This document shows, piece after piece, positions 4,230 to 62,297 of a stretch of DNA of 64,000 nt. The DNA is from Pleurocapsa sp. FMAR1 (lineage in GTDB: Bacteria > Cyanobacteriota > Cyanobacteriia > Cyanobacteriales > Xenococcaceae). The first letter of the stretch is position 1. Every line of letters begins with the position of its first letter. The translations under genes were made by a program, and so were the position numbers. The notes beneath the pieces are model-generated. The model worked only from the letters and a program-made list of their open reading frames with translations, was not told the DNA's origin and did no database searches. The stretch spans positions 372,001 to 436,000 of the forward strand of contig NZ_OY762512.1 of assembly GCF_963665995.1 (NCBI RefSeq), in the 5' to 3' direction.

Positions 4230-4560
4230 TGTTACGGATCAGTCCGTTTAGAAGTCTGCGTCGCCTGAGCGAGAGGAATGCGCGAGTTGGCATTCCTTTA
4301 CGGGAAGCTCGCGCGTTCCCTTGCTAAGTCAGCGTTCCCGTAAAGGAGAGCTGTCCTGAGACAGTACATGCGGACAAGTCCTTTGTGCAAGACTGAGATG
4401 CGGACGAAGCGTCCTTTCTTGCTGTTCCACGCCCGTCGGTCAGAGGTCAGAAGAGTTATAGCTATTTCCAGAAAAAAGCACTTTGACGGTGAGGGACGCG
4501 GACAAAGGGCTTGCCCGCATGTTTTCCGACCCTTGCCCAATCACCGTGTTATTAATCAAA
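4230..4560. repeat. mosaic palindromic repeat region R1
   Basis: This GC-richer stretch contains no credible gene. It is a patchwork of modules that recur elsewhere in the window. The 38-base block at 4349-4386 recurs with one mismatch at 21229-21266. TCCGTTTAGAAGTC at 4243-4256 recurs inverted at 56434-56447. A CTGTTCCAC(G/A)CCCG block recurs near 21302. Local palindromes include GGAATGC...GCATTCC and an outer CGGTGA...TCACCG pair at about 4488-4547. Open frames across it are compositional artefacts. Confidence 0.7.
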
Positions 4561-4606
4561 TTTAGTATCAAATAGCTTAGACTAAAAAAGCTATCAGCTA
4601 AAAAAA

Positions 4607-4808
4607 ATAGATATAATTCTGTGTCATCAGACTGTAGATTTTGACGCTTTAGGTTCGGCAATTGGCTTGTCTCGGCTCAAATTAGGAGCAATAATTGTCC
4701 TGACTGGAGGCGCACATTCTACGGTAAAAAACTTTCTGGCACTATGCACTACATCGAGATGAATTTGACTTTGCCGAAATGCGAAGTATAAATAGTAAGG
4801 CGATCGCC
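4607..4808 (+). pseudogene. N-terminal fragment of DHH-type A-adding tRNA nucleotidyltransferase
   Basis: Translation from 4607 gives [19 protein letters not shown] and then [17 protein letters not shown], which matches the DHH phosphoesterase N-terminus of the large cyanobacterial tRNA nucleotidyltransferase/poly(A) polymerase-type proteins (DFDALG motif). Three lesions are visible. The start codon position holds ATA. A 7-bp near-duplication (GGCACTA/TGCACTA at about 4739-4751) shifts the frame, after which [18 protein letters not shown] continues from 4752. All homology then stops just before the transposase fragment at 4825. It is a dead fragment, probably left by insertion and deletion; a functional copy is expected elsewhere in the genome. 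Confidence 0.75.
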
Positions 4809-4824
4809 AATAAAGAAGAAGACA

Positions 4825-5163
4825 ATGCCTGCTCCATACAGTTACGATTTGAGAGAAAAAGCGATAAATGCAGTTAAAAGAGGTGAAAAGAAAATAGTTG
4901 TTTGTCGATTAATGAAAATTAGCCGCAATACTTTAGACCTCTGGTTGCGAAGAGAACGAGAAACAGGAGACTTCCAAGCGATTATTCAGCTTTTGAGTAG
5001 AGACAATCGGAAAATTCAAGATTTAAATAGATTTAGACAATTTGTGAAGCAACATCAAGATAAAACCCAACAGAAAATAGCAGAACTATGGGGAGAGAAA
5101 CTGACACAGCAAAATGTAAGTGATGGAATAAAAAAATTGAGTATAACCAGAAAAAAGTGGTCA
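4825..5163 (+). pseudogene. IS630-type transposase, N-terminal fragment
   Basis: The 113 residues from ATG 4825 are the helix-turn-helix DNA-binding half of an IS630/Tc1-mariner transposase: MPAPYSYDLREKAINAVKRG, a recognition-helix region CRLMKISRNTLDLWLRRE, then a second winged-helix-like part. Homology ends at ITRKKW, where relatives continue with the DDE catalytic domain. From 5165 the DNA is instead mosaic repeat R2, so the catalytic half is missing and the protein cannot transpose. The open frame that continues to 5349 reads through repeat DNA and is not protein sequence. It sits directly behind the tRNA nucleotidyltransferase fragment. Confidence 0.8.
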
Positions 5164-5164
5164 T

Positions 5165-5500
5165 ACCCCCTTCGGGTTCGTGCCTTTGCTCAAGTCGGGG
5201 AAGCCTTTCGGCACTTTGACGGGCGGTATAAACGTCGCAGCAAAGCTACGACGACACGCCCTCCTCAACGGGTCACAGACCCGCAACGCAAGTGCCTCAC
5301 CAACGCAACTGCTTCACCGCGTCGCCGCTACTGCGCAAGGGAACGCTGACCAAGACAAACTAGATGCGGACAAGCGCGAAAAGAGGAAAGACCCCCGCTC
5401 CAGGGAATGTTCACCAAGACAAGCTGCTTCGCAAGCAGCATTTCCGTGCAGCAAAGACCACACTTCATCGCTTTTTTCCTGGCAGCATAGGCGCGACGTT
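5165..5500. repeat. mosaic palindromic repeat region R2
   Basis: This replaces the catalytic half of the transposase. A 25-base module at 5263-5287 (CTCAACGGG...CCCGCAACG) matches the modules at 56338-56362 and, inverted, at 38856-38880. The following stretch at 5301-5350 (GCAACTGCTTCACCGCGTCG, then GCGCAAGGGAACGC) is nearly the same as 56357-56404. Tiny palindromes are present, such as CGTCG..CGACG near 5232-5252 and GCTGCTTCGCAAGCAGC at about 5421-5437. No protein-coding capacity is supported. Confidence 0.7.
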
Positions 5501-5505
5501 TAGCA

Positions 5506-5652
5506 TTAACTTTGCTCTTGTTTCTCAGACGACCGCGTTTTAATCCGACAGTTATGACCAACATAGCATTCAGGGTGCTTTTCCTTTGCCTCATCCTCAG
5601 TGCGATAATTTTTGGCACAGTAAACACATTTAAGATTAGCTTTTCTTCTCAT
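5506..5652 (-). CDS. 48-residue cysteine-rich small protein coupled to YhaV toxin gene
   Basis: ATG at 5652 overlaps the TGA of the YhaV reading frame (TGATG), the classic arrangement for translational coupling. The 48 residues are basic and hold CVYC, then HPECYVGHNC, i.e. four Cys and two His with zinc-ribbon-like spacing, ending KTRSSEKQEQS. The frame is intact although both genes upstream in the operon are broken. Function is unknown. It may be a third component of the toxin-antitoxin operon, a zinc-binding regulator, or an unrelated passenger. The repeat region R2 begins just after its stop codon. I do not recognise the family with certainty. Confidence 0.5.
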   Translation of the reverse strand: MRRKANLKCVYCAKNYRTEDEAKEKHPECYVGHNCRIKTRSSEKQEQS

Positions 5653-5711
5653 CAATCAGACTCAATAATGTCTTTTAAGTCAAGGGGAAATTGACCCTTA
5701 TTAACCATTTT

Positions 5712-5759
5712 GGCAGTGGGTGTCGCGGAATTTATTTCCGCTTGACCAACCACTGCGTT
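5712..5759. repeat. 48-bp palindromic insertion inside the YhaV gene
   Basis: Outer arms GCAGTGG (5713-5719) and CCACTGC (5750-5756) enclose inner arms GCGGAA (5725-5730) and TTCCGC (5736-5741), so the block can form a nested cruciform. It adds 16 codons in frame between RVFA and KMVNKG of the toxin. Confidence 0.65.
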
Positions 5760-5800
5760 GGCGAATACACGATAACAATCTTTCTTATCCCCCTTTTCCT

Positions 5801-5857
5801 CGCGCAAGGAAATGCTTTTTGATGTTGAACCATGCGCGGGGATCGCTCTTCTTTCCT
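5801..5857. repeat. 57-bp insertion inside the YhaV gene
   Basis: The block is flanked by TTTCCT at 5795-5800 and 5852-5857 (AGGAAA in the gene direction), as a short target duplication would look. It separates FPRKE from GDKKDCYRVF. It contains CGCGCAAGGAAA and CATGCGCGGGG, resembling pieces of the other repeat regions. Confidence 0.55.
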
Positions 5858-6170
5858 GGGAAATCCTAGCCAAAGAATAATTATTACCTGTTGCTGGGGA
5901 AATACTTTAAAGAAGAGTCGGTAACGACTAGGCAGTCCCATTTTTTTAAGACGACTATACTTATCTAAGGGTTTTTTCAAAGCAAAGTATGAAGCCAGAG
6001 GGTCAGTCGGTATTTTTTCTTTAATCCCAACAGTAAAAGCTTTAAACAATTTAACCTGGGGATGCCGAACAAAATCTGATTGAGACAGACGTGAGCGTAG
6101 AGACTTTACCGAATTGAGTAATTGCTGCCACTGCCGATTGAATACAGGATGAAACAAGATAGTCCACCCA

Positions 6171-6504
6171 TTAATCTTCATCGATAATCTCCCCAACTAA
6201 TAATTCATTTGCCGACTGGCTCATTTTGGAAGTATAGGCAATAAGAGACTCAGGTTCTTCAACGGCAGACTTCATTAAAAAGTCTAGAAACAAACTCATT
6301 ATCACATCATCACTTTCTTTCTCTGTTTTCTCAACAGGATTCAGACGAACCAATTAAGGTATTCTCATCTAAAACTTCAACATGACCGCTAGCACCAACT
6401 AATTCAGGATGATCTCTGGAGAAAGCGCGAGGTAAGCGATATCCATCTTGATTGCCAATCTTGGCAGGAGAGACTGGGTAATTGTTGTTTTAATCCTTAG
6501 ACAT
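6171..6504 (-). pseudogene. prlF: PrlF-type antitoxin of the YhaV module, broken
   Basis: ATG at 6504 begins MSKD, followed at once by an in-frame TAA (6490-6492). The same frame then reads NNNYPVSPAKIGNQDGYRLP and continues with an AbrB-like swapped-hairpin pattern (FSRDHPELVGASGHVEVLDE). At about 6352-6356 an extra base moves the frame to VRLNPVEKTEKESDDVIMSL and then SLFLDFLMKSAVEEPESLI, the C-terminal toxin-binding part, ending at 6171. Gene order (antitoxin then toxin with an 11-base overlap) is that of PrlF-YhaV. Two lesions make the antitoxin non-functional, consistent with the toxin also being broken. Confidence 0.7.
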
Positions 6505-6753
6505 TGAATAAAAGTGGCTTTGACGATGTTATTATGATGTTGTTAGTTGACTCATAAATTGAAAATTTACGAACTGATCGATCCACAAGTTGAAAAAATT
6601 TAACGATTCAATTAATTATGCTTGAACCCTGTATTTTAATTGATTCTGGCTACGAACTCTTTATCTTGTGCGGTGCAATATAAAGAATCTGTCAGTTATT
6701 TTTGCGATACACTTCAAGCTACTGGATTATTTATTTAGCAAAGAGAAAACTGC
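6505..6753 (+). other. AT-rich leader of the cold-shock gene
   Basis: No gene is seen here. The 249 bases upstream of the cold-shock ORF are AT rich. A long 5' leader would fit the post-transcriptional control known for cold-shock genes in other bacteria, but no specific fold is claimed. Confidence 0.3.
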
Positions 6754-6957
6754 ATGAGTACAGGTACTGTAAAGTTCTTTAATGACGAGAAAGGCTTTGG
6801 TTTTATACTTCAAGATGACGGAGGCAAAGATCTTTTTGTTCATGCCACCGAAATTCAAGGCGATCGCAATACTACTCTCAATGAGGGACAGAAAGTGGAA
6901 TATGAAGTTGGACAAGGCAAGAAAGGACCTTGTGCGGTAAACGTTATTCCAAATTGA
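6754..6957 (+). CDS. cold-shock domain protein (CspA family)
   Basis: This 67-residue single-domain protein carries both RNA-binding motifs of the cold-shock fold: RNP1 as KGFGFI (residues 13-18) and RNP2 as DLFVHAT (26-32). It begins [18 protein letters not shown] and ends [10 protein letters not shown]. Proteins of this family bind single-stranded RNA and DNA and melt secondary structure in the cytoplasm. Length is normal. AAAGAGAAAACTGC precedes the ATG as a weak ribosome site. A stem-loop follows the stop, so it is probably monocistronic. Confidence 0.93.
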
Positions 6958-6983
6958 TCTTATTTGCCAAGAGTGATATTTCG

Positions 6984-7017
6984 AGTCTGTTTGATAGAAA
7001 CTAACATCAAACAGGCT
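6984..7017 (+). terminator. stem-loop after the cold-shock gene
   Basis: Arms AGTCTGTTTGAT (6984-6995) and ATCAAACAGGCT (7006-7017) pair over 12 bp with one G-T wobble and a 10-base loop. The T-run that follows is weak (TTGACTATTT), so termination may be partial. Confidence 0.5.
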
Positions 7018-7028
7018 TGACTATTTAG

Positions 7029-7071
7029 AGCGACTGCTTAGAAAAGCGATCGCTCTCCTAATGCAGTCGCT
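7029..7071. terminator. hairpin between the cold-shock and phosphoesterase genes
   Basis: AGCGACTGC (7029-7037) pairs with GCAGTCGCT (7063-7071), followed by TTTCT on the plus strand. The gene at 7099 ends just to the right on the other strand, so this could be a shared bidirectional terminator. A HIP1 site sits in the loop. Confidence 0.45.
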
Positions 7072-7098
7072 TTTCTGAGCAAAATGTCTTAATTTGAT

Positions 7099-10000
7099 TT
7101 AAGCAAAAGCAAAATTATCTTCATTAGCCAGAAAGTCAGCAGGGGTATTACTAACTATTGCCAAATCATTACCTTTAGCAGAAATTAACGCTCCAGCATC
7201 AGTTTGGGTAATACTCAGGTCGTCGTAGCCAATACCTAAGCCAGAAATACCGATGACATCCTCGCCACTAGTAAAGTCAGTAATAGTGTTAGGAGATTCA
7301 GGATATTGACTATTGGCAATCCAGAATTGATCTGAGCCTAAGTTACCAGTAATAGTATTGTCGCCACCAGAGAGAACAAATAACTGGTCATCATCTCCAT
7401 CAGCAAAAATGCGATCGCTTTCACCTAAGATAAAGACATCTTGACCATTGCCACCATAGGCGCGGTTATTTCCCTCACCAGGAGAAAGATCGATTAGATC
7501 ATCACCTTCACCAGTAAAGATCAGGTTGTTGCTAGTATCAAAATCAAGACCCGCTTCTAAGATATCGTCTTTTAAAGTACCAAATACAGATGTGGGAGTG
7601 TCTTCACCCATATCCGAAATATCTTCAGGCGCATCAGTAGTCAAGAAACTTAATTGACCACCCTCAACTAAATCAGCTTTGGCAATTATGCCATCTTCAA
7701 CACTATGAGCCTGAACATCGAAGATAAAGCGCGTTCCAGGTTCTTCATCAAATAGCTCAGAAACATCGAGAATCCCTGAAGACTCCCAGTTGCCAATATC
7801 ATCTGGTTCGGGGTCAGTTTGACCCTCTGGTAAAGCAGAACGATCCATTTGAGCTACGCGAGTTAGTTCACCAGAATTAGGATTTAGCTTCCAAATTGAA
7901 GCTTCTTCGCCAGAAGTTCCGCCAAAATCCTCATCTTCAACCGTAGCTCGATCTTCTTGAATATAGATATAACCATCATCCGACCAATCTGTATTATCAG
8001 GACTACGGACACCGAAATCAGAACCCTTAAATTGACCATTTCCTGCATCATCCCCATCATAGAGAATGTCAATTTGTCCAGTCAAAGGAGCGCCAGATTC
8101 GCCAAACTCCGTACTTATTTTGTAAGTTGTACCATAGTTATCCTCTGCAAAACGTCCACCACGACCAGTAGAATTTAGCACCGCTTGAGTGCCATCTTCT
8201 GGGTTGGTCGCTACATCTTCAGGACGAGAGAATTGGAAACCACCCGCATCAATAGACATTTGATCTTGCTGTGCTTGAGTTGCAAACCCTTGTTCATCAT
8301 AACCAAGCTCATCTTGGATCTCGCCATCATCATTAGTATCTACTGCCGAACCTGACTTGTCAGGGCGATAGTAATCAAGCTCTAGCCAGCTACCAGCTTG
8401 ACTGTTTCCAGTACCATTAAAACCAGCAGGATCGGGTGCATTATCATCGTCTACTTCTTCCCCATCTTCATCTGTGAAAGTAGGAGTGTCAGCAAGATCG
8501 CCCTCAGGAACCCAAGTATAAAGTTTTCCGCCTGCTAAACCATTGCGTTCGAGTAACCCTGCGCCTTCAGTAGTATCTTTTTCCCCAACATACATGGTTA
8601 AGGGCGCGCCTTCGCGATCATCTCCTACCAAGAAAGCAACCTGATCGGTAGTGCCAGTATCCAATTCAGTAACATTTTCCCAAGCAGCACGACCCATCCA
8701 AGGCACAGCCTGAAGAGTATTAGTAGCGGGATCGAGAACAAATTCTGTACCACCAGCAGTTTCTTCGCCAGTGAAGAACAAACTGTCTGTTAAACCGCGA
8801 CCTTCACCAAATTGATTTGCTTCGATATAGTGTGCCGAACAAAGACGATTAAGACCTTCGTATTCTAAGTCTGTAATTTCGTTTACCTTTTCACCATTGC
8901 GGTTAATAATCTTGTCATAAGCCAAGCCTGAATCTTCAAGTTCCAGGGTTTCTTTATTGAGATCGAAAAAGCTAACCCGTCCGCCAGTTAATTCTGTACC
9001 ATTCGCTAAAGTATAAGCATAGCCTTCATCTGTAAGTTCGTGGTTTGCCAATATTCTTACGGTATCGTCATCTAGGGCAAATGCACCCAAGCCATCAATA
9101 TCTCCTGGAGGTGCATAATCATTAAATTCTTCACCAACGGTAAAAATGGGATCTACTTCGTAACCATTTAACCCTTTCATTTGTGCGGGTTGTTCTGTAT
9201 CGCCAGTGTTGTTAATAAATGTGGGGTTCATAATATTTCCTCCAAGTTTTGGGTCTAAATTTAATGGGGTTTCTAAATTGATGGCGATTACTTCGTTGTT
9301 GTCGATATCTCCTTCTCTTCCCTGGGAAAAAGGATAGTTATTATCGTTAGCAACTAAAATGGTGTCTTTGTCAGCGACTACTATGTTTTCAATAGTTTCA
9401 AAGGGAAAATCGAAGGTAGTCTTGCGATCGCCGTTTAAATCATTCGGGTCGTCAATATTTAATAAGTCAACGACTTCTTCTTTGGCGACAAAACCGTTCT
9501 CATCTACCTGAGAAACATCAATTTTGAAGATCTTTTTAAATTTGGCTTCTTCTCCCTGGTTGCTATCTCGTTCGATAACGAGAAACTCATGATCGTTAAT
9601 GGGCGTAAAGTCACCAATAGGATTGCCGTCAGTGGTTGGGTAGTAACCAACTAAGCCGTTATAGTCAGCAGACTCCACATCAAATTCATAGATGCGTAGG
9701 GCATTTTCAGGATCGCCATCTACTGTTCCTTCTAAAAAAGGATAAAGAGTTTTGCGATCTGGACTAAATGCCATGCCTTCAAAACCTTTGGAACTAGCTA
9801 GGTTAGGTAAGTCAGACCCTAACTCTGGATTTTGAGGAGACTGGACAAATTCACCCGTCACTGAATCTACTACCGCTACTCCAGTAGCAGGAAAGTCAGT
9901 AAAGAAGCCATCCACGCCTACATCTATTAATTGTTTAAACTCTTCTTCAGGAGTTTGAGGATTACCCTCAGCATCCAGAGTTAGAAATCGTTCTTCATTC

Positions 10001-11583: not shown

Positions 11584-11630
11584 GTTGTATTTTCTAGTTA
11601 AGTGAAATGTAAATTCCTAAAATTTGCAAA

Positions 11631-11672
11631 CAAAAACATGGAAATAACACGATCATTATTTCCATGTTTTTG
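11631..11672. promoter_or_regulatory. 17-bp perfect hairpin in the leader of the phosphoesterase gene
   Basis: CAAAAACATGGAAATAA (11631-11647) is the exact inverse of TTATTTCCATGTTTTTG (11656-11672), with an 8-base loop. It lies 48 bases upstream of the ATG. In the gene's direction it is followed by TTTGCAAATTTT, so it could terminate early or hold the leader in a fold. Whether it attenuates transcription is inference. Confidence 0.55.
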
Positions 11673-21162: not shown

Positions 21163-21183
21163 ATTTATTTAGTAACAGTTAGA

Positions 21184-21360
21184 GTGGGTGGAAACGCTAC
21201 ATGCGGCAAAGCGCCTTTGTGTTTAAGAAGCTGTCTTGAGACAGTACATGCGGACAAGTCCTTTGTCTGCGGAGGGAAACCCTTCTGCAAGACTGTCTCG
21301 CTGTTCCACACCCGCTTCGGCAGTGAAGGGACTTGGATTGCAGACTCCGTATATCTTAAC
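21184..21360. repeat. mosaic palindromic repeat region R3
   Basis: The 38-base block 21229-21266 is the same as 4349-4386 in R1 except for one base. It contains the small palindrome CTGTCTTGAGACAG. A GCTGTTCCACACCCGCTTCG block at about 21300 follows, also shared with R1. The region separates the amidase and ABC-ATPase genes, both on the minus strand. Reading frames over it are not supported. Confidence 0.7.
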
Positions 21361-38821: not shown

Positions 38822-38936
38822 CTCACTGACCAACGGTCACAGCAGCGCGAAAAGCCGTTGCGGGGGTTTCCCCCGTTGAGGCTATTGAGCAAGAAGGCTC
38901 CGTCCGTTTAGGGCGGAGTAATCTGTGACTTGTTAG
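38822..38936. repeat. mosaic palindromic repeat region R4
   Basis: Module 38856-38880 (CGTTGCGGGGG...CCGTTGAG) is the inverse of 56338-56362 with one mismatch. GGCGGAGTAATCTGTGAC at about 38912-38929 is shared (inverted) with 56272-56290 and, with one difference, with the hairpin at 53639. TCCGTCCGTTTAG at about 38899 is shared with R1. It sits between the peroxiredoxin and sat. Confidence 0.7.
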
Positions 38937-38987: not shown

Positions 38988-40151
38988 ATGAGTAAAGACT
39001 TAATTGCACCTCACGGTGGTGAATTAATAGATCGTTTGGCTACCCCAGCCGAAAAAGAAGACTTTCTAGCCAAAGCCGACTCTTTACCCAGAGTTCAGTT
39101 AGACGAAAGAGCTACCTCCGATCTAGTTATGATCGCCATTGGTGGATTTAGCCCCCTCAGTGGCTTTATGGGTCAAGAAGACTATGTTAGCGTAGTGAAA
39201 AAAATGCGTTTAGCTAATGGTTTACCCTGGTCTGTACCTGTGACCCTCTCGGTAACTAAAGAGGTTGCCGATCCTTTAGCAGTAGATAGTCTAATTCGCT
39301 TAGATAATCCTGACGGCAAATTTATTGGGGTTTTGCAGCTAAGGAAAAAGTATAGCTACGACAAGAAGCATGAGGCAACAAACGTTTACGGCACGGAAGA
39401 AGACAAACATCCTGGAGTCAAAGTAATTTATGACCAGGGAGAAATCAATTTAGCTGGCAAAATATGGTTGCTAGAGAGAGAAGATCACCCCCAGTTTTCT
39501 AAGTATCAAATCGATCCTGCTGCTTCTAGAGCCATGTTTCAAGAAAGAAACTGGGAAACGGTAGTTGGTTTTCAAACCCGTAACCCTATTCACCGCGCTC
39601 ATGAATACATTATTAAATGTGCTTTGGAAATTGTTGATGGTTTGTTTCTTCATCCTTTAGTCGGAGCAACAAAGAGTGATGACATTCCCGCTGATGTAAG
39701 AATGCGCTGCTACGAAATTATGATGGAAAACTATTTTCCTCAAGAACGAGTAATTCTAGCCATTAATCCTTCTGCCATGCGCTATGCAGGACCAAGAGAA
39801 GCCATTTTCCACGCTTTAATTCGTAAAAACTATGGCTGTACTCATTTTATTGTGGGTCGCGATCATGCTGGAGTAGGTGACTATTATGGAACTTACGATG
39901 CTCAAGAAATTTTTGGAGAATTTGCACCAGAAGAACTAGGTATTACACCTCTCAAGTTTGAACACGCTTTTTACTGTACGCGGACAGAACAGATGGCAAC
40001 AGCTAAAACTAGCCCTGCAACTAAGGATGAGCGAATTCATTTGTCAGGGACAAAAGTAAGAGCTATGCTGAGAGAAGGCAAAACACCTCCTCCCCAATTC
40101 TCTCGTCCAAAAGTTGCCGAAGAACTAGCAAGAGCAATGAAAGCTTCATAG
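38988..40151 (+). CDS. sat: sulfate adenylyltransferase (ATP sulfurylase)
   Basis: The 387-residue enzyme makes adenosine 5'-phosphosulfate from ATP and sulfate, the first step of sulfate assimilation. It has [16 protein letters not shown] (the HxxH nucleotide-binding motif) and [13 protein letters not shown], followed by the FY/F(Y)CTRTEQMA region. It is the monofunctional, kinase-free form. The mosaic repeat R4 lies upstream. Confidence 0.96.
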
Positions 40152-44570: not shown

Positions 44571-46658
44571 ATGTCAAAACAGATAATTATTGCAGAACAA
44601 CATCACATAGCTGCTGTTTTCTGGGAAGAACAAATACAAGAGTTAATTGTTGCCACAGGTTATCAGCAAGTAAGTGATATTTACCTAGGTACGGTAGAAA
44701 ATATTATTCCTGGTATCGATGCTGCGTTTGTTAACATTGGTAATAGCGAACGTAACGGTTTTATTCACGTCACAGATTTAGGACCATTACGCCTTAAAAG
44801 AAGCGCAGCAGCCATTACTGAACTGCTAGCTCCTCAGCAAAAAGCTTTAGTTCAGGTTATGAAAGAACCTACAGGCAATAAAGGACCAAGGCTAACTGGA
44901 AATATCACCTTACCAGGACGTTACTTGGTCTTGATGCCCTATGGTAAGGGAGTTAAACTATCTCGTCGTATCGCCGATGAAAATGAGCGTAGTCGTCTTC
45001 GCGCCTTGGCAATTTTGATTAAACCACCAGGAATGGGCATCTTAATCAGAACTGAGGCAGATGGTAAAGCCGAAGAGGCCATCATGGAAGATTTAGAATT
45101 TTTGCAAAAGCAGTGGGAATCGATTCAGTATCAGGCAAACTACGCCAAGCCTCCAGTTTTACTTAATCGGGATGATGACTTTATTCAGCGTGTTTTACGG
45201 GATACATACTCGGCTGAAGTTAATACTATTGTGGTTGACTCTTCTGCTGGAGTAAAAAGAGTCAAGCAACAGTTAATGAATTGGAGTAGTGGACGCTCAC
45301 CCCAGGGTGTCTTTATTGATTATCACCGCGAACAGCAGCCGATTTTAGACTATTATCGCGTTAATGCTGCAATCAAAGAAGCTCTTAGACCGAGAGTCGA
45401 ACTGCCTTCTGGAGGTTATGTCATTATTGAACCAACAGAAGCCTTGACGGTGATTGATGTGAATTCAGGGTCGTTTACTCGCTCGGCAACTGCCAGAGAA
45501 ACAGTGCTATGGACAAATACTGAAGCTGCTACCGAAATTGCTCGTCAGTTGCGTTTACGGAATATTGGCGGGGTGATTGTAGTTGACTTTATTGATATGG
45601 ATTCCCATCGAGATAAGATCAAGCTGTTAGAACAGTTTAATAAAAGCCTCAAAGGAGATAAAGCACGCCCGCAAATTGCTCAACTTTCTGAACTAGGTTT
45701 AGTAGAGCTTACTCGTAAACGCCAAGGCAAAAATATATACGAATTGTTTGGTCAAACTTGTCATACTTGCGGTGGTTTAGGGCAGATAGCCCATCTTCCA
45801 GGAAAATCAGAGGCAGAACCTTTAGAGACTTCGCCGATAATTCCTCCTGCTGCGATTCGTGAACCAGTTAATAGTATTCGTCCTGTAATTCCTTCTCCCG
45901 TAGAACGACCAGAAAAACCAGAGTTGGTTAACAACTCGACCCCAGATCTAGGATACGATCGCAACAGTCGTCAACCAGACTTAATTAGTCATCCTAACTA
46001 TCAAGAACAGGCAGGAAGTAGCAACGGTAATCGTCGTCGTCGTCGTAGTCGTCGTAACGATCTGCTGATCAAAGAAGAGTTAATTGAACAAGAAAATTTA
46101 GAGCAAAACAACAGAGTTATTGATTTAGATAGTGAGAATAATACTGAAGAGCGTAAATCTCGTTCTCAATCCCGTTCCCCTCGTAGAGATGAAGCTAATT
46201 TAGAAAAAGTGACTATAGAAATGGATGACATGGAACAGGAGATCTATGCCTTGATGGGTATATCTCCCCTAGTTTATGCTGACCAAGAAGCTCAAGATCC
46301 TAAATCTGTTTTAGTTTACGTCAAAAAACCTGGAGAAGAGTTAGCTGAAGAAGAAACAAAAACGCTTGTTCCTGAACAGTCAGAAGTTGAAAGAAAGCCC
46401 AAAACTAGAGTTCAGAAGACCCAAAGCCAGGACAAAACTGAATTTGTCCCTGAACCAGAAGCTGAAGTTGAATTAGAGCCTGAAACTGAACCAGAAGCTG
46501 AAGTTGAATTAGAGCCTGAAGTTGAATTAGAGCCTGAAGCTGAACCAGAAGCTGAAGTTGAACCAGAACTAGAATCTGTAGCCGATGAAGAAGCTTCGAC
46601 TACTGGTCGTCGTCGTCGCCGTCGTCGTTCTTCAGCCGTTAAAGAAGTTGAGGTTTAA
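44571..46658 (+). CDS. rne: ribonuclease E/G
   Basis: The 695-residue enzyme is the main endoribonuclease of mRNA turnover. It begins MSKQIIIAEQHHIAAVFWEE. The S1 domain is at about 35-120 (VENIIPGIDAAFVNIG). The catalytic core has the metal-binding VIDVNSGSFT and VVDFIDMDSHRDK. The zinc-link CHTCGGLGQ ends the core at about 405. The rest is disordered: an Arg patch (RRRRRSRRND), an acidic repeat (EPEAEVELEPE units) and the final GRRRRRRRSSAVKEVEV, the tail that binds PNPase in cyanobacteria. There is no membrane anchor. The rnhB gene follows. Confidence 0.94.
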   Translation: MSKQIIIAEQHHIAAVFWEEQIQELIVATGYQQVSDIYLGTVENIIPGIDAAFVNIGNSERNGFIHVTDLGPLRLKRSAAAITELLAPQQKALVQVMKEPTGNKGPRLTGNITLPGRYLVLMPYGKGVKLSRRIADENERSRLRALAILIKPPGMGILIRTEADGKAEEAIMEDLEFLQKQWESIQYQANYAKPPVLLNRDDDFIQRVLRDTYSAEVNTIVVDSSAGVKRVKQQLMNWSSGRSPQGVFIDYHREQQPILDYYRVNAAIKEALRPRVELPSGGYVIIEPTEALTVIDVNSGSFTRSATARETVLWTNTEAATEIARQLRLRNIGGVIVVDFIDMDSHRDKIKLLEQFNKSLKGDKARPQIAQLSELGLVELTRKRQGKNIYELFGQTCHTCGGLGQIAHLPGKSEAEPLETSPIIPPAAIREPVNSIRPVIPSPVERPEKPELVNNSTPDLGYDRNSRQPDLISHPNYQEQAGSSNGNRRRRRSRRNDLLIKEELIEQENLEQNNRVIDLDSENNTEERKSRSQSRSPRRDEANLEKVTIEMDDMEQEIYALMGISPLVYADQEAQDPKSVLVYVKKPGEELAEEETKTLVPEQSEVERKPKTRVQKTQSQDKTEFVPEPEAEVELEPETEPEAEVELEPEVELEPEAEPEAEVEPELESVADEEASTTGRRRRRRRSSAVKEVEV
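46442..46575 (+). repeat. in-frame tandem repeat in the rne tail
   Basis: Units related to GAACCAGAAGCTGAAGTTGA recur, giving alternating EPEAEVELEPE and EPETEPEAEVE peptides. Only DNA of this stretch is repeated; it codes for an acidic linker before the arginine tail. Copy number may vary. Confidence 0.7.
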
Positions 46659-53588: not shown

Positions 53589-53592
53589 AAGT

Positions 53593-53638: not shown

Positions 53639-53688
53639 GTCACAGATTACTTCGCCCTACATGGGCGAAGTAATCTGTGACTTTTTTT
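53639..53688 (+). terminator. 19-bp perfect hairpin plus T7, in the fusA-rpsG gap
   Basis: GTCACAGATTACTTCGCCC (53639-53657) and its exact inverse (53663-53681) enclose TACAT. The plus strand continues with seven T, so it is a textbook terminator for transcription opposite to the str operon. The arm also belongs to the mosaic-repeat family (see 38822 and 56270). Confidence 0.65.
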
Positions 53689-55108: not shown

Positions 55109-55291
55109 GAGTTATTAGCTTGTGTGGTTTCAAATCCTCTTAAATTTATTAATGTCAAAATAAGCTAACAGAGTAGCAGACAAATTATAATACTAGTTTA
55201 AAATGCATTCTTCTGTCAATCTTAAATATAACATTATCGTTAGCTCGTGATTATGAACATAATAGAAACAATATTGGGCTTGGCTGATATT

Positions 55292-55636
55292 TTATTTTTC
55301 TTTAGTGATATCAAAGGATATGCCACAACCACAAATATTCTTGGCTTTGGGATTATGAAACCTAAATCCGCCTCCCATAAGATCCTCAGAATAGTCTAAC
55401 TTTAGATCTCCAAGATATTTCCAAGAATTGGCATCGACTAATACTGTGATCTTTCCAACTTCTAAAACCTGTTCTTGAGATGAAGTGGGAGCATGAGTAT
55501 GCTCTAATTTTAGCTGGTAATACCAACCAGAACAGCCCCCTGGACTAACAGCTAGTCGCAAAAAACTGTTCTTTGCTTCTCTATTCAGTTGGATTCGCTG
55601 TATTTCTTTGACTGCGGATGGACTAATATTAACCAT
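55292..55636 (-). CDS. A-type iron-sulfur cluster carrier (HesB/IscA family)
   Basis: The 114-residue protein has the three cysteines of A-type carriers: one in SPGGCSGWYY and two in NICGCGISFD. These accept or pass on [2Fe-2S]/[4Fe-4S] clusters in biogenesis. It differs from SufA in parts of the middle and may be the cyanobacterial HesB-like or ErpA-like version. It lies upstream of rpsL on the same strand and could share transcripts with the ribosomal genes. Confidence 0.9.
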   Translation of the reverse strand: MVNISPSAVKEIQRIQLNREAKNSFLRLAVSPGGCSGWYYQLKLEHTHAPTSSQEQVLEVGKITVLVDANSWKYLGDLKLDYSEDLMGGGFRFHNPKAKNICGCGISFDITKEK

Positions 55637-55776
55637 GAAAATGCTTTGCTTATAACTCCTTAATCTTTAGATTATGCTACAGCAAAACACTTTCACAGCT
55701 TTAATTTACGTAGCCTTGGTTAAAAAAAATCTTTAATTTTAGTTAAAATTATCTGTGAGGCAAAACTAAAGATCTA

Positions 55777-56199
55777 CTATTGACGAGCATAATCATCACT
55801 AAAACGAATAATGTCATCTTCGCCTAGATATTGACCATTCTGAACTTCGATTAAAACTAGCTTGATTACGCCAGGATTTTCTAATCGATGAGTAGTGCAT
55901 TGAGGCACATATGTAGATTGATTGCTACTTAGAATCATTTCTTGGTCGCCACAGCTAACTTTTGCCGTACCAGAAACGACAATCCAATGTTCACTTCTAT
56001 GATGGTGCATTTGTGAGCTTAAGCGATGACCAGGATTAACTTCTATTCTTTTAATTTTATATCCCGATCCTTCCTCTAAAGTAGTAAAAGAACCCCAAGG
56101 ACGAATTTCTGTGGCAGTGATTCCCGATGAACTTTGAGGACTTGCGATCGCTTTAGCTTGCTTATTTAGGTAGGACTTAATTTCAGTTGATTGAGGCAT
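55777..56199 (-). CDS. cupin protein, mannose-6-phosphate isomerase type II-like
   Basis: The 140-residue protein is a single cupin domain like the C-terminus of ManC/mannose-1-phosphate guanylyltransferase: RPWGSFTTLEEGSGYKIKRI, then PGHRLSSQMHHHRSEHWIVV (metal-binding His cluster), and THRLENPG. The nucleotidyltransferase part is absent, so it would be a phosphomannose isomerase or a binding protein in sugar-nucleotide supply. ATG 56199 is chosen; a TTG at 56220 adds seven unlikely residues. Confidence 0.82.
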   Translation of the reverse strand: MPQSTEIKSYLNKQAKAIASPQSSSGITATEIRPWGSFTTLEEGSGYKIKRIEVNPGHRLSSQMHHHRSEHWIVVSGTAKVSCGDQEMILSSNQSTYVPQCTTHRLENPGVIKLVLIEVQNGQYLGEDDIIRFSDDYARQ

Positions 56200-56681
56200 A
56201 ATAAATAAATTTGGTGACAACAGTAATATAGATATAGACTTAAATTTAAACGAGAAATCAAACTAACCAACAGTCAGAGATTACTCCGCCACGTCCCGCA
56301 TAAAGACGAGCGACCCCCTAAAGGGTTCAACAGTTTGCTCAACGGGGGGAACCCCCGCAACGCAACTGTCTTACCGCGTCGCCGACAGGCGCAAGGGAAC
56401 GCGCGAGTTTGTTCCTAAACGGAACAGCACGGGGACTTCTAAACGGACGAAGCCTGCTATAACTTGCCTGCTTTTTTTCTAAGCTTGCTTGGTTAAGCTG
56501 ATAACAAAGATAACAAACATTAATTAAAATCTTAGTAAATTATTGAAGCTACTAAAGCATCTACATCGAATCTTTATAAAGCCCAATGAAAAAATGGAAA
56601 AATTATTAGTGAACTTTAATTGAAATTTATATTTAACCTCAATTATTTCAGTTTGAAGCGATCGCCTTGGCGCGAAATTTA
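56200..56681. other. spacer largely filled by repeat R5
   Basis: Positions 56270-56460 are mosaic repeat. The remainder (56461-56681) is AT rich, without a frame or structure that I can support. Confidence 0.4.
56270..56460. repeat. mosaic palindromic repeat region R5
   Basis: This is the fullest copy: GTCAGAGATTACTCCGCC at the left (as 38822 and 53639), CTCAACGGGGG...CCCGCAACG at 56338-56362, GCAACTGTCTTACCGCGTCG at about 56362 with GCGCAAGGGAACGC (as R2), CGCGAGTTTGTTCC, and GACTTCTAAACGGA (inverted in R1). No coding potential. Confidence 0.7.
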
Positions 56682-58283
56682 TTACTTTTGGCGCCGATAA
56701 CAATTTAGATATGTTGCGGGAATTAAATACAGTGCTAGTAAAGTCGCTCCTATAACTCCATTGGCGATCGCAACTACTAGAGGTGGCCAAAATTCCCCAC
56801 CGCCTAATAATAAAGGTACAAAACCAATAGCAGTAGTTAAGGTAGTGGCAATTACATGGCGAGTAGAATGCAACACCACTTCTCTAATAGCTGGCTTGTT
56901 CCCAGTTTTAGCTAGAGGATGCTGTTGAATAGCAGCTAGCACCACAATCGAATCATTAATTGCTACGCCAATTAAGCCTACCTTACCGATAATTGGGTTG
57001 AAACCAAAAGGATAGCCAAACAACCAAATGGAAAACAAGCCTAACCCAAAAGAGGCGATCGCCACCACGCCGATAAACGCAGCCAAACGAAAAGAACCTA
57101 AAGATAAAACTAAAGTCGCTATCATCAGGACAATTAAGACTCCCACCGTCGAAACTAAACCACCGAGGGCATCATTTTTTTCTTCTGCCTCTCCGCCAAA
57201 CTCATAGCTATAGCCGTTGGGAAGTTGCCAGTTAGCTTCAGTTAGTTGCTGTTTAAAATCGGTCAATGCTTTATCGGGGGAAACTCCTGGGGTCAAAAAG
57301 CCTTGAATTGTATTAACTCTTTGTCCGTTGTAGCGAGTGATTTTAGCAAGTTCTGGTTCGAGAGTTATCTTGCCTAAAGATGATAGGGGAACATTTTGAA
57401 CCTCATCACTCGAACCATTTTGGTTTGATAATAAATTTAAAGAGGGCTTTAATGCTGAAACTATCGCGTCAAAAGGTGAGTTGAGAATGCTTTTATCGAT
57501 AGTGATATCTAAGTCTTTAATCTCAGCAGATAGTTGTCTTACTGCTGCTTGCTGTGCTCTTATTTGTTCGACCCTCGAACCATTTTGTAACTCGTCTAAA
57601 TTGCTTTTGGCGTTGGCTAAACGTTCTTTCAAGGCTTTACGATTAAAAGCGATTTCATCTAACTCCTCACGGGCGATCGCACCTTCTGCGTACAAATATT
57701 CTCGACGGGAACTTTTAAGCTTTTCTAGTTCTAGCTGCTGTTGAAGATCCCTTACGTTTGCTTGTGCTGCTGCTATTTCTTCTATTCTCGCACCATTTTT
57801 TAGTTCTGCCAGAACTGCATCTTGTTGTTCTTTGTGGGCAATTAATCCTTAGCGTTGTGCCTCTAAGTTTGTTGTATCTAACTTGGCTAGAGGAGTGCCG
57901 AGAGAAATGCGATCGCCTTCTTCCACTAATACCTCAATCAATTTATCCCCACGTTCAAAATCTACCTCGCTTGTCCGTAATGCCGTTACTTCTCCAGTAT
58001 AAGTTTGGGATGTAGAGTAAGACCCGACTGGTTCGAGTACTGTAGTTTTAACAGGCAGAATATTTGTTTGACTAGCTACAGATTTAGCAGTTGTTGGCTG
58101 CTTCGGCTGAAATTTTTGCCCCAACACGAAACCTAATCCTAATAACATGACTATTGCGATCGCTAGCTGCCAGTTTTGAACTTGTTTCTTTGCTTTCATC
58201 TGATGTGAAAGTCCCAATTTATCCTCAGCATTCTCATTCGATGTCGTTATAACCTCGATCTGGTGTGGTTGCTTTAAGCTCAT
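56682..58283 (-). pseudogene. chimeric HlyD-adaptor / RND-permease pseudogene
   Basis: ATG 58283 begins a membrane-fusion adaptor: cytoplasmic tail, helix (WQLAIAIVMLLGLGFVLG), then TGEVTALRTSEVDFERGDKL and EGDRISLGTPLAKLDTTNLE, ending at an in-frame TAA (57849-57851). The adaptor continues past it (LIAHKEQQDAVLAELKNGAR, a coiled coil, then SPFDAIVSA). At about 57440 it changes without a break in frame to the C-terminal third of an RND pump: VPLSSLGKITLEPELAKITR, GGEAEEKNDALGGL, GVAINDSIVVLAAI, ending LYLIPATYLNCYRRQK. A deletion has joined adaptor and permease, losing the adaptor end and most of the pump. It cannot transport. Confidence 0.8.
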
Positions 58284-58965
58284 CTCGCTCACCAATAGAT
58301 AATTGAATAGTTATTTGATCTATAATTTGGTTAGTATTGGTGCGACCTGCAAAGGCGCATCCTAGAGTGAGTCCCTAAGAAAGACTCCAGCTTAATAGTC
58401 AAAGCTGTACCCGCCCGAAGGAGCATTTCTGGTAACGGAAATGTTTCAAAGCTAGAGGGTTAATTGTCCCGACTAATTCCAAAACATCTGGATAGGAAAG
58501 GGCTAGGGTAAGACACATAAGATTAACAAAGCGTGAATCTGTGATGAGGCTTCTAAACTATAAGACTACACCAAATAAACGATGTTTAGGTGTAGAGAGA
58601 TTAAGGCTATCCCTCTCTCTTAGGGATGGCTTGTTATTAGTTACCGATATAACAAATAACTAGACTATCAACAATCTCGAAACAACAGGAGTATAGCAGG
58701 AATCTAAGTGTGTCGCATCTCAAAGATGTGCAACAGGGAAACCCCTAATAAGTCTCATTTCAATGAGTAAGTTAACCGCAAGGAAAACCTAATTCTTATT
58801 AGGGACAGGAAAGTTTAAAAAGCGAATGTCGTCATATCGAAAGATAACAGAAATAAATAACTGGACGAATAGGGCAATACCCAATCTGAAAAGATGCTGA
58901 CGTAGACAGGTGATATCTGCTGAATATCATGCAATCAATATTTTGAACTCGAAAGGAAAAGTTAG

Positions 58966-60112
58966 ATGCAAAATAATGCAAACGTAACTTCGAGAATATC
59001 AAATTGGCACTATATCAATTGGTATAAAGTCAATTTAAATATTAGAAATCTTAGAAGACGTATATTCAAAGCAACTCAAGAAAATAACTGGAGGAAAGTC
59101 AGAAATCTCCAAAAGTTAATGTTCCGAAGTTGGTCAAACATTGTCCATTCCATCAGGAAGACAACACAAATCAATCAAGGAAAAAAGATGGCTGGAGTTG
59201 ACAAGATTGTGGTAAATACTCCGCAACAAAGGTTAGCCATGTCTTACGACTTGGTATTCGACCGCCGTTGCAGACCCAAGCCAGTTAAAAGAGTAAACAT
59301 TCCTAAAAAGAATGGCAAATTAAGACCATTAGGCATACCAACAATTAGGGATAGAGCAATACAAGCAATTGTTAAAAATGCTCTAGAACCATGTTGGGAA
59401 GCTCAATTTGAAGGAATTAGCTACGGTTTTCGACCTGGCAGAAGCACCCACGACGCTATAGGAAAATATATCTTATAGCACGTCCTAACAAGACAAAAAA
59501 GTGGATTGTAGATGCCGATATAAAAGGATGTTTCGACAAGATAAGCCACATTAAACTATTAGAAATCATTGGGAATTTTCCCTATCGAAATCATGTAGAA
59601 AAATGGCTTAAAGCTGGGTATGTAGAAAAGAACACTTTTCATCCCCAGATTGCTGGAACTCCCCAAGGCGGAATAATAAGCCCTCTCTTAGCCAATATTG
59701 CCTTACACGGCATGGAAAAAGCATTAGGTGTCAAATAATATGACAGCCGAGGAACTTTAACCAGAAGCAAAAGAGCAATGGTAAATATATCACAAAATTT
59801 GCCTGGGTAAAAATCAAAAGACATTCAATAGTTCCAAAAAAATCATCTCCCGATGATCCTTCTTTAAAAGAATATTGGAAAAAGAGAAGTCAAAAGATTA
59901 ATAAATCCGAGGCAGAAAAGCTAAACAAAAGACAAGAGTACATAGCACATAAACAAAAATATAAATGTTCTGTATGTGGTCAATCATTATTTAATGATGA
60001 AGCACTACATCTTCACCATATTATTCCAAGAAGTAAAGGTGGTAAAGACAACATTAATAATTTAGTTTTATTGCATTTATTCTGTGATCACAAAACTCAC
60101 CATCAAAAATGA
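58966..60112 (+). pseudogene. intron-encoded reverse transcriptase/maturase with HNH end, broken
   Basis: Starts [22 protein letters not shown] domains 0-2 are readable ([43 protein letters not shown]) to 59478. A frameshift near 59467 is followed by KKWIVDADIKGCFDKISHIK, GTPQGGIISPLLANIAL and an in-frame TAA after ALGVK. The stretch with the catalytic YADD motif is missing; sequence jumps to a domain X-like FAWVKIKRHS and a zinc/HNH endonuclease end (CSVCGQ, then HLHHIIPRSKGGKDNINNLV). It is dead as RT; the intron could only splice or move with help in trans. Confidence 0.8.
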
Positions 60113-60124
60113 GTGATATTGCTT

Positions 60125-60159
60125 GAGCCGAATGCTTGGAAATCTTGCACGTTCGGTTC
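60125..60159 (+). ncRNA. group II intron domain V
   Basis: GAGCCGAATGCTTGGAAATC pairs with TTGCACGTTCGGTTC to give the 34-35-nt domain V hairpin, with the GAAA tetraloop-like tip and CG bulge region of catalytic group II introns. Domain VI with its branch-point adenosine follows. Confidence 0.8.
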
Positions 60160-60331
60160 TTAGGGGGGAAAGGGGCAGCAATGCCCCTGACCTACCCGAC
60201 AATAAATTGAGTATAAAATAAATATATATACAACTTATTGAATATGTAAACTAGCGATCGATAATTCGTTTATTATCAAGATCGATTACCCTGTACGAGC
60301 CAACAAAAGTTGGTTCTCGTAAATTACTAAA

Positions 60332-60885
60332 ATGGCATTAACACATACAATTTTGGCGACTTTAGGGAATGAAGCCTATAGTGGTTACGATCTCTAGAAA
60401 AATTTTCTGAATGCACCAATCACTATTGGAAAGCTAGCCAACAACAGGTTTACCGAGAACTGAGTAAAATAGAGACTCAAGGCGCGATCGTCCCAGAAAT
60501 AGTTCCTCAAGAAGGTCGTCCCGACAAAAAGCTGTATAGAATAACGACAATAGGGAAAGAAATTTTAACCGCCTGGATTGCCGAACCTTCATAACCAATG
60601 GCGATAAGAGAAGAACTGCTAGTTAAAGTTTTAGCAGGACATTTAGTGTCTCCCCAAGTAATCATTCAAGAATTAAAACGTCGCCATCAAATATACTTAG
60701 AAAATTTAGCAGCTTGTAAAAATAAAGAGCAAGATATGTTTGTTGAGTCGTCAGAACTATCTTTGGCTGAAAAATGTATGTATTTAACCCTAAGACGGGG
60801 TATTAGTTATGAAACCCAATGAGTAGAGTGGTGTGAAGAAGCGATTGCAGCTTTTCAGTCAACAGTTAATAGGGATGATCATTAA
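60332..60885 (+). pseudogene. PadR-family regulator, broken
   Basis: ATG 60332 starts MALTHTILATLGNEAYSGYD, the PadR winged-helix opening, then TAG. A frame shift follows and the family continues NHYWKASQQQVYRELSKIET, QEGRPDKKLYRITTIGKEIL, IAEPS, then an in-frame TAA, then MAIREELLVKVLAGHLVSPQ and so on to a further TGA before VEWCEEAIAAFQSTV. At least three stops and one shift. It faces away from the efflux genes across the intron, the usual layout of a PadR-regulated efflux locus. Confidence 0.8.
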
Positions 60886-61340
60886 TTAATTTCGACAGCG
60901 ATCGTATCGATGGTTTCAGCTTCGGTGTCAGCAGGAATTTTAAAGGAAAGCGATCGCCTTAAATCTTTTTCTTGATAGTTAATCGTAAACAACCCTGCAT
61001 AAATATCTGTTCCTTCGGGCAATTATCTACTTTACAGCGATCGCTTTTAAAACTTACTTTCATCACTCGATGATTTTCTCAATCATATTTATTAGCTTCG
61101 ACAAACGGTAAAGGAAAGGGAAGGAAGCCTAAAGCACCATTTAAAGCACCTGAAACCCGACCATCTTTCACCTTGGTTGTATGTAAGAGTTCAATTTTAT
61201 TATCTTGTCTTTCAATGCGAATCCATTGATCATCTTCTCCAGAACGGTCTAAGTTTAGTTTAATAACCTGGAGTGGCGGTTGTTGACATTGAGAATTAAG
61301 CGGAAACTTGTTACACAAAGCATTGCGATCAATTCTTGAG
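60882..61340 (-). pseudogene. unknown secreted-type protein, broken and truncated
   Basis: The sequence reads ADASRIDRNALCNKFPLNSQ, QPPLQVIKLNLDRSGEDDQW, GALNGALGFLPFPLPFVEAN, then a TGA and, after a one-base shift near 61020, EGTDIYAGLFTINYQEKDLR and an end IPADTEAETIDTIAVEIN. The N-terminus is lost where the second intron fragment begins (about 61345). It shares its stop with the padR remnant (convergent overlap). The family is not recognised. Confidence 0.5.
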
Positions 61341-61354
61341 GCATCGGCGTAATC

Positions 61355-62042
61355 CGCCTATAATGAATTCAGGGGCAATTGCCTTATCTAAGATTGCATT
61401 ATGGCTTATGCGGTCGAAGCCTTTTTTTTTCGATATCTATTTCTAGAACTCTTTTATTTATTCCGTTGCTTTGGCTTCTGAGATTTAGGAACAGTTTCTT
61501 TTGGGCATCATATGTGCCTCTTCCTGGTCTAAATCCGTAGCTTTGTGCGTGGAACACTGCTTCGTGTGCTGGTAAAGTGAGCATATTTGACAAGACATTG
61601 CACAGCGCATACGCGCAGACCGCCCTAGCGGGCTGGAGAGCTTTGCTCTCCGTCTCTATCGGCGATTGTTGGGACTTTGAGGATTCGTTTTGTTCCATCC
61701 TTTTTTGGGATAGGAATTTCTCGTAACCCTTGATGTTTCCAAGTCTTTGTATTTTGTTTTAAAGTCTCCTCTAATTGGAATCGTTCCTTGAACGTTAAAG
61801 ACTTTTTGCCATCAATCCCTGCCGTTTTCTTGCCAGTATTCAACTGGGTTACTTGCCTGATTGCTAACAAACATTCTCGCTGAATGAGAAGAAAGAACAA
61901 GTTTCTGAAGCCTTTTAGCTCTTGCCTTGTCTCCAACTTTAACTGCTTTAAATATTCTTCTTTGTAGGCGGAATAGAACTTTCTGAAATCCCTTCCAGTC
62001 GGCAAATTCCCAATTATCGCTATAACTATTGCTATGCGTCAT
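61355..62042 (-). pseudogene. reverse transcriptase of the second intron, broken
   Basis: Starts MTHSNSYSDNWEFADWKGFQ and follows a different RT lineage from the first intron. A one-base insertion near 61880 shifts LSSHSA to RECLLAIRQVTQLNTGKKTA. After IPKKDGTKRILKVPTIADRD a palindromic block (61603-61652) is inserted, then [20 protein letters not shown] resumes. A run of nine A near 61431 shifts the frame again in DIEKK/FDRISHNAILDKAIAP, where sequence ends. RT domains 0-2 only. Confidence 0.75.
61603..61652. repeat. palindromic insertion inside the RT gene
   Basis: GGAGAGCTTTGCTCTCC (61635-61651 area) is a small palindrome, with CCGCCCTAGCGGG beside it. It interrupts conserved RT sequence between TIADR and the PAHEA motif. 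Confidence 0.6.
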
Positions 62043-62089
62043 AATTTCTGTCCTCCGTGGTTGAACATTCTTCTGATATCCTTTTGGCG

Positions 62090-62297
62090 CGGAAAGCAAA
62101 GCTTTCCCAGTCGTCTTCGACGACGATCTGAGTGCGAAGCACTCAGATCGCCTCATCCTACCCGTAGCCAGAATTTCCGATGCTCGTCCATCCTATCTAG
62201 GTTTCTTACCCCTAGAATCTGGTGCTACGTTTTTATTCCTTCGCAGTCTGGAGACTGCCGACAATGCCGAAGGCATTGGCGAACAAACGTAGTTTGT
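62090..62297. repeat. cluster of seven tiny palindromes
   Basis: Perfect or near-perfect palindromes follow one another: GGAAAGCAAAGCTTTCC (62091), GTCGTCTTCGACGAC (62110), a 25-mer GATCTGAGTGC..CACTCAGATC (62125-62149), CAGTCTGGAGACTG (62244), AATGCCGAAGGCATT (62263) and CAAACGTAGTTTG (62284). Each has a 3-5-base centre. The run is broken by about 90 bp of ordinary intron sequence. Confidence 0.7.

Follow-up and report, generated by a model that had tools for sequence, protein, structure and literature searches.

The genome of the cyanobacterium Pleurocapsa sp. FMAR1 (5,429,540 bases, single contig) contains a stretch of 64,000 nt, bases 372001-436000 and hereafter the window, in which six regions share short palindromic modules in different order and orientation. 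This raised the question of what these repeats are and how they spread. Many of the modules turn out to be versions of a single structural hairpin whose stems have been swapped, and the elements they form are non-coding, mobile palindromes of ~45-115 nt, mostly ~50 nt, whose identity lies more in the fold than in the sequence. We give a probability of roughly 0.55 to the reading that such shape-defined palindromes insert in spacers and genes, nest in one another and are moved in trans as single-stranded DNA (ssDNA) hairpins, as selfish DNA. Among the literature matches listed there was no work on these Pleurocapsa-group repeats.

Using the pattern CTCAACGGGN7CCCGCAACG with at most two mismatches, 99 copies were detected in the FMAR1 genome (55 forward, 44 reverse) and none with the reversed control pattern. 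The repeats are thus not single-copy coincidences, a possibility raised by the first-pass annotation, which had been made from the window's sequence alone. In a 446-kb sample (the window and fetched stretches) searched with one pattern, 8 of 16 cores lay in a single 20-kb stretch (L120, G000:C1:5220001-5240000).

The core is a hairpin that consists, in order, of a stem, one unpaired T, a stem, an internal loop TCAA/CAAC and a further stem; both the unpaired T and the internal loop are conserved, and the stems that carry them covary. Allowing up to four mismatches gave 106 hits in the FMAR1 genome, 83 of them distinct when the arms were included. In this unselected set 40 copies paired in at least six of eight arm positions around a single unpaired 5' base, and 22 paired in all eight. 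When the 3' arms were re-dealt 500 times, the corresponding means were 10.1 (maximum 19) and 1.7 (maximum 6). This test served as a check on selection bias in alignment A1, which comprised 34 gap-free copies out of 43 hand-picked from the 106 hits; nine TTCAAC/TACAAC-type copies with one base less were set aside. Since the 43 copies were picked partly for pairing arms, the percentages for A1 are biased upward: 91.8% of the cells were paired compared with 67.8% after shuffling, and 115 cells showed a double change compared with 43.9. Covariation in A1 was 0.555 against a shuffled value of 0.155 +/- 0.017 (reached in 0 of 500 shuffles) and 0.025-0.125 when the partner was slid. The bases of the internal loop were best conserved, and changes on both sides were found in 12 of 15 pairs. 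The earlier description of the 25-base module, with kept arms and a varying centre, was right, and the centre changes largely via compensating pairs.

The unpaired base was T in 64 of the 65 distinct copies with perfect outer stems from all fetched loci, over 39 left stems; the copies are related to one another and therefore do not represent 64 independent events. For this count perfect stems and one unpaired 5' base were required and the identity of the base was left free. Beside another T the position of the unpaired base is ambiguous, and it is fixed by the stems GACAA-T-AAC/GTT-TTGTC and GATGTAG-T-CG/CG-CTACATC.

The mobility of the elements, suspected in the first-pass annotation, is shown by empty sites in relatives that are ~65-87% identical, in spacers as well as in genes. 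Between a gene that we take to be fusA and the S7 gene rpsG (identified by Pfam), 48 nt were present here and absent in all eight same-genus loci aligned, with five loci of other families left outside the alignment. The flanks of the empty spacer, TTTAC|TTT.., meet cleanly in L229, L230 and L236; the other five spacers are more diverged. None of five module patterns was found in the orthologue of the 38.8-kb spacer in any of ten relatives. At the 21.2-kb block, a locus not aligned with relatives, both flanks match on one contig in three of eight same-genus genomes; in one of these three, G005, the flanks are 7 nt apart, against 232 nt in the window.

Insertions were also observed inside genes. 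An IS66 transposase gene (Pfam) carries a 51-nt in-frame insert, flanked by GCTT on both sides, that is absent in all eight homologues covering both sides (partial homologues were excluded). Two DNA-methyltransferase genes carry in-frame inserts as well, one of 114 nt (L179) absent in 7/7 relatives and one (L184) absent in 5/5. At L179 the left flank ends in GCTT, a motif that stands at the empty site in three of the seven relatives, and the right end reads GCTG, therefore no target duplication is needed there. Both inserts of the CTTG..CGCGCT type (IS66, L179) thus stand 3' of GCTT. In all three genes the FMAR1 frame is open through the insert and the homologues are empty; the lengths of 51, 114 and 48 nt correspond to 17, 38 and 16 codons. 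In the XdhC gene an insert near the 3' end is absent in 4/4 relatives. One relative (L295) carries a different 48-nt module elsewhere in the same methyltransferase gene as L184, which resembles one in the FMAR1 genome. Other small inserts, of 24 and 28 nt, occupy a HIP1-like (highly iterated palindrome) site, GCGAT|CGC, in the IS66 homologues of G022 (L259) and G005 (L274); a similar insertion in a HIP1-like site has reportedly been made by the small dispersed repeat (SDR) SDR5 of Nostoc.

The elements are spread over a group of related genomes. An exact-pattern scan of a collection of 84,980 species returned 40 stretches. Of these, 22 came from records with Pleurocapsa, Waterburya, Myxosarcina, Xenococcaceae, Hyellaceae or Pleurocapsales in their title; the other 18 were single hits, each in an unrelated bacterium, and chance may explain part of them (rough estimate ~7 expected in 257 Gb). 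The covariance model at E 0.1 matched 134 places in the FMAR1 genome (150 of 1572 first-look candidates scored), 8-57 places in each of 12/12 same-genus genomes, 3-62 places in five of six other genera of the family, and three places in one of 11 genomes of other families. At E 1e-5, 22 of 147 genomes of the order matched, FMAR1 included. Seven genomes of another family, f18, hold 9-26 copies each, which read TCTTG-GAAACT-T-TCC-TCAACG-..-GCACG-GGA-AGTTTC-CGC or carry GCCAG-T-TTG-type arms. They share with the FMAR1 copies the unpaired T, the CTTG..CGC ends and a similar loop, whereas the stems differ. The f18 core was recognised at 22 of 25 loci fetched, at eight of the 22 within a frame open on both sides. 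Five of these eight were identified by Pfam, as histidine kinase (two similar loci), a protein with condensation and AMP-binding domains of a non-ribosomal peptide synthetase, an Mfd-like helicase and a methionine-synthase activation domain.

In the window, the repeats listed in the first-pass annotation were recovered with small corrections. The 38-nt block at 4349-4386 matched 21229-21266 at 97%, with one mismatch. The 25-nt block stands at 56338-56362 and, inverted, at 38856-38880 as reported, but its first copy starts at 5264 (5264-5288) and not at 5263. Likewise GTCASAGATTACTCCGCC was present, and inverted at 38911-38929, with its start at 56273 instead of 56272, and the palindrome arms at 53639-53657 / 53663-53681 were found, although the arm reads ..ACTTCGCC and not ..ACTCCGCC. 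TCCGTTTAGAAGTC was confirmed by direct reading of the sequence, at 4243 and, inverted, at 56434. That the same modules occur in different order holds true, because the 241-nt block at 4230-4470 is unique as a whole and its pieces match 42 other places in the FMAR1 genome; as a single element the whole block was rejected, recurrence being limited to its parts. It contains TCCGTTTAGAAGTC, GGAATGCGCGAG.., the 38-nt block with GAGACAGTACATGCGGACAAGTCCTTTGT, and GCGGACGAAGCGTCC, and has matches in 9 of 20 genomes searched (FMAR1 included), all of one genus. The composite at 38.8 kb does recur as a unit, with copies of 93% and 97% in FMAR1 and of 80-90% in relatives. At its two ends the block at 56.3 kb carries GTCAGAGATTACTCCGCC and GACTTCTAAACGGA.

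Hairpin-module features of the window, with their surroundings and the z-score of the DNA fold.
Feature	Coordinates	Strand	Ends and covariance-model match	Surroundings	DNA fold z
Mosaic block of hairpin modules	4230..4470		ends by eye		-4.4 (4230-4379)
Mosaic block, holds module core 5264-5288	5146..5470	+	ends by eye; match 5256-5299, E 2.8e-5	directly behind truncated IS630-type transposase reading	
Mosaic block, second copy of the 38-nt block (21229-21266)	21165..21340		ends by eye	between amidase gene and ABC-transporter gene	-1.65
105-nt composite GTCACAG...CTGTGAC carrying hairpin core	38827..38931	-	match 38841-38897 minus, E 1.1e-17	spacer between AhpC/TSA gene and gene at 38988 (presumably sat)	-2.1
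48-nt insertion: CAACT + perfect 19-bp palindrome, 5-nt loop	53634..53681	+		between fusA and rpsG	-13.2
Mosaic block, hairpin core 56338-56362	56272..56450	+	ends by eye; match 56321-56377 plus, E 3.8e-15	flanked by cupin gene and RND-transporter gene	-2.8 (56265-56414), bulged stem visible in fold

Some further observations were made around these features. The truncated IS630-type reading (4825-5160; HTH_Tnp_IS630, PF01710, in the open reading frame (ORF) 4825-5349) stops where the second mosaic block begins, and similar IS630 sequence was seen near modules in L120 and L203. The minus strand carries, at 5732-6196, the toxin gene of a toxin-antitoxin pair, of the YhaV type (PF11663), and an 18-nt tandem repeat lies at 46421-46594 within a long ORF. 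A repeat holding CGACTTCGATGCTTCGCATCGTG, often at ~376-nt spacing, forms small arrays at four sampled places (L101, L106, L107, L109).

The elements are best seen as selfish DNA; how they move we infer. They would be moved in trans as ssDNA hairpins, by a structure-reading nuclease or transposase that would recognise the bulged T and the internal loop. The hairpins would be joined to the 3' side of a short target, which for the CTTG..CGCGCT type is (G)CTT, no target duplication would arise, and the chemistry may be like that of the Y1/HUH enzymes of the IS200/IS605 kind. In IS608 transposition the hairpin ends have an extrahelical T; the extrahelical T of the present elements together with their GCTT target appears to resemble Y1/HUH transposition. 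A preference for hairpin DNA as target, as we propose, would make the process self-nesting. Among 44 copies outside ORFs with both mechanically predicted ORF neighbours within 600 nt, orientation to the flanking genes was even (13/12/10/9), and the stem cells of 72 sequences held 24 G.T against 20 A.C, no clear G.T excess. Both observations fit selection at the DNA level.

The same two results tell against RNA-mediated spread, in which a reverse transcriptase, for instance one from a group II intron, would put an RNA copy of the hairpin back into the genome. This route is said to have been suggested for the Nostoc SDR elements. It would account for a structure with compensating changes, and a group II intron domain is present in the window at 60123-60200 (Rfam RF00029), but no link between intron and modules was seen, though none was searched for. 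We regard RNA-mediated spread as rather unlikely. Upstream of the intron domain a broken reverse-transcriptase/HNH-like reading was noticed by eye (region 59400-60200).

The first-pass annotation had proposed insertion of modules into one another or recombination between them, and filled and empty pairs inside the FMAR1 genome bear this out. We mined 609 kb of its sequence for sites of the form X-Y versus X-insert-Y and obtained 349 pairs, or 245 when low-order tandem families were removed; the 245 pairs are not independent events. Inside a core lay 49 of them, 28 clean and 21 tandem-like. The junction GGGTCATAGAC|CCG was common to five clean cases of zero homology, a 164-nt insert in three copies and two others of 92 and 67 nt. 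The mosaics are thus built by copies and other hairpin modules inside earlier copies. At L078, ~6190-6310, a core was seen nested in a GTAGGGGCGGTTCG..CGAACCGCCCCTACA palindrome within a 619-codon open frame. These data also bear on the explanation that there is no dedicated mobility and the mosaics arise among short repeats through replication slippage, template switching and gene conversion. Junction homology of at least 8 nt, as slippage would give, was found in 84/245 pairs and the 34-nt tandem units agree with it, whereas homology was below 8 nt in 161/245 and inserts stand in genes and spacers where relatives have no such module. For the founding insertions slippage is contradicted; it may explain the tandem part, and as an account of the whole we consider it improbable.

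The first-pass annotation saw no encoding enzyme, and we found none beside the modules either; tests of Y1 transposases and of REP-associated tyrosine transposases (RAYTs; REP, repetitive extragenic palindrome) gave no link. The 296 ORFs lying up to 700 nt from a core include no gene that constantly accompanies the modules. Judged by eye, the gene clusters found at three or more loci comprised one place fetched repeatedly, frames derived from mosaics, response regulators and short-chain dehydrogenases. For Y1 TnpA as the encoded partner no link emerged. Y1_Tnp was over the cut-off in 26/26 carriers. None of the insertion sequence (IS) copies looked at carries the R1 hairpin. One module (F5) was detected in the right-end region of two IS200-type copies in G010, which do not belong to the 25 Y1 loci scanned, and at L335 (G006) the Y1 right-end region reads ACTGTCTCGCAAAACGCGCC, by eye a string common in the FMAR1 mosaics; both are read as insertions. 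That the modules are parts of one long IS or intron, as the first-pass annotation also considered, found no support, since no long IS or intron carrying the module set was found. The CTCAAC motif prompted a comparison with the attC consensus of integrons, and an attC-like site was rejected because the two motifs stand in direct, not inverted, orientation.

A REP/RAYT system, in which the hairpins would be REPs moved by a RAYT, is distinctly improbable. FMAR1 does have a RAYT gene (L156, NF047646 over the cut-off; two matches in all), a RAYT is over the cut-off in 86/147 genomes of the order, and the hairpins are imperfect palindromes at high copy. However, three of 22 carriers gave no RAYT match at E 1e-3, namely G035 (18 copies), G079 (9) and G054 (1), so that RAYT as sole mover is rejected, and none of seven module patterns is present at L156, the one RAYT locus scanned. 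The support for mobility that had been expected from a RAYT did not appear. The arms also have no GTAG or CGTC tag: neither was among the 15 commonest flanks on either side of 65 copies, where CCTC (18), TCTT (9), CTTA (6) and CTAC (2) were counted on the 5' side and TCGC (17), TCCT (7) and CGCT (6) on the 3' side. By eye, TAGGGTGGGCA repeats stand on both sides of L156, and an IS200-like tnpA (L154) has repeated CACCATGAAATTAATTTCATGG-like palindromes around it; these are possibly other repeat/enzyme pairs. Finally, that the host keeps the hairpins as a family of regulatory RNAs or terminators is hardly credible: the structure is conserved and many copies are intergenic, one of them between fusA and rpsG, but orientation to genes is even, copies lie inside genes, Rfam at gathering score gave nothing at the window modules (one group II intron was its only match there), and the empty state of the same spacers in relatives speaks against it unless function was gained after insertion. 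The even orientation and the G.T and A.C counts weaken an RNA function.

Several results weigh against mobile hairpins moved as ssDNA. Of the 83 distinct copies, 43 have no pairing arms, including all 19 of the CGCAACG type. The latter are tandem or hybrid joints and the non-pairing copies are mostly half-copies; about half of all copies were shown to be either half-copies or tandem units of 34 nt, with a different joining of the CAACG motifs that flank the core. The bulged stem is missing from the lowest-energy fold of the 38.8-kb composite, and the IS66 copy taken by itself has an unremarkable DNA fold (z -0.95). Given the identity of the relatives, insert boundaries are good to a few bases. 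The GCTT around the IS66 insert can be read as a 4-nt target duplication, and at the L179 site GCTT is present in no more than three of the relatives. At L184 the alignments with L279 and L295 show a gap of 48 nt and those with L278 and L280 one of 51 nt, and the fifth relative (L285) aligns poorly. In XdhC the frame ends inside the insert, and the 28-nt insert of the other type in IS66 is not a multiple of three. The nesting counts stand without a computed expected rate. Concerning the enzyme, no transposase family occurs at more than two loci among the 296 ORFs (IS630 in L120 and L203), and 24 of 25 Y1 loci scanned carry none of the seven module patterns, the exception being L153 of FMAR1 with a broken tnpA inside a mosaic and no R1 core. 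The best Y1_Tnp match is weak or partial in G011, G095, G050 and G087.

More broadly, the elements may form one structure-defined class of mobile hairpins in several cyanobacterial families, with no transposase of their own, read by shape, moved as ssDNA, targeting hairpins, nested and inserting whole codons. That this is a new class rather than degenerate IS ends is a tentative proposal. Very small palindromic repeats abound in the genomes of bacteria, and their mover is established only in the RAYT case. A minimal unit with its signature in structure, insertions located almost to the base, and carriers that have or lack a RAYT make the question of the mover testable. The in-frame insertions are a route by which selfish hairpins could add stretches to proteins, for instance to DNA methyltransferases. 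For annotation, open frames covering mosaics need not be genes.

By behaviour the elements appear nearest to the SDRs of Nostoc, the Rickettsia palindromic elements (RPEs), SMR-A and REPs. The SDRs of Nostoc punctiforme reportedly comprise several families with one secondary structure and compensating changes, are nested, often in heptamer repeats or HIP1 sites, and are thought to be mobile by an unknown enzyme. The elements described here similarly have a common structure with compensating changes and nest in themselves or related elements; in relatives, small inserts occupy a HIP1-like site, and modules stand beside heptamer-like tracts (by eye). The SDRs are, however, said to measure 21-27 nt and to be confined to a subgroup around the heterocyst formers, whereas the inserted units here are 48-114 nt, 25 nt being the core only, and their range takes in further families besides the Pleurocapsa/Waterburya group; empty sites and in-frame insertions in genes are seen as well. 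Like IS200/IS605 ends and palindrome-associated transposable elements (PATEs), the elements present a hairpin with an unpaired T, as known from IS608, and may insert 3' of a short target and without duplication; GCTT was seen in two independent cases, and in one of them a duplication is not needed. Unlike those ends and PATEs, the unit is a single hairpin. Compared with a miniature inverted-repeat transposable element of a DDE transposon, the GTCACAG../..CTGTGAC type has inverted ends and no duplication at fusA, and the GCTT at IS66 is ambiguous; no parent IS was found, and no systematic search was made.

RPEs are described as ~150-bp palindromic elements inserted in frame into unrelated coding genes (PMC10969869). 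The likeness lies in the palindromic form and the in-frame insertion; host and unit size differ, the unit here being smaller. The archaeal SMR-A of Haloquadratum has no target duplication, is too short for a transposase, is mobilised in an unknown way and targets palindromes of other elements, features that the present elements appear to share; it differs in being archaeal, in its ~110 bp, commonly >95% identical within a type, and in its terminal inverted repeats (PMC3119063). REPs and hairpin-forming REP doublets (REPINs) are imperfect palindromes of 20-60 nt at high copy in mosaic clusters, some intragenic, which the present elements resemble; Anabaena, Nostoc and Cyanothece have GTAG REPs, and CGTC REPs have no dedicated transposase (PMC3733652, PMC3116915). 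The present elements differ in having neither tag on their arms and no tie to RAYT. Because they lack the REP tag and the link to RAYT and exceed the SDR size, we place the elements as a kind of small mobile palindrome that is not a member of these systems.

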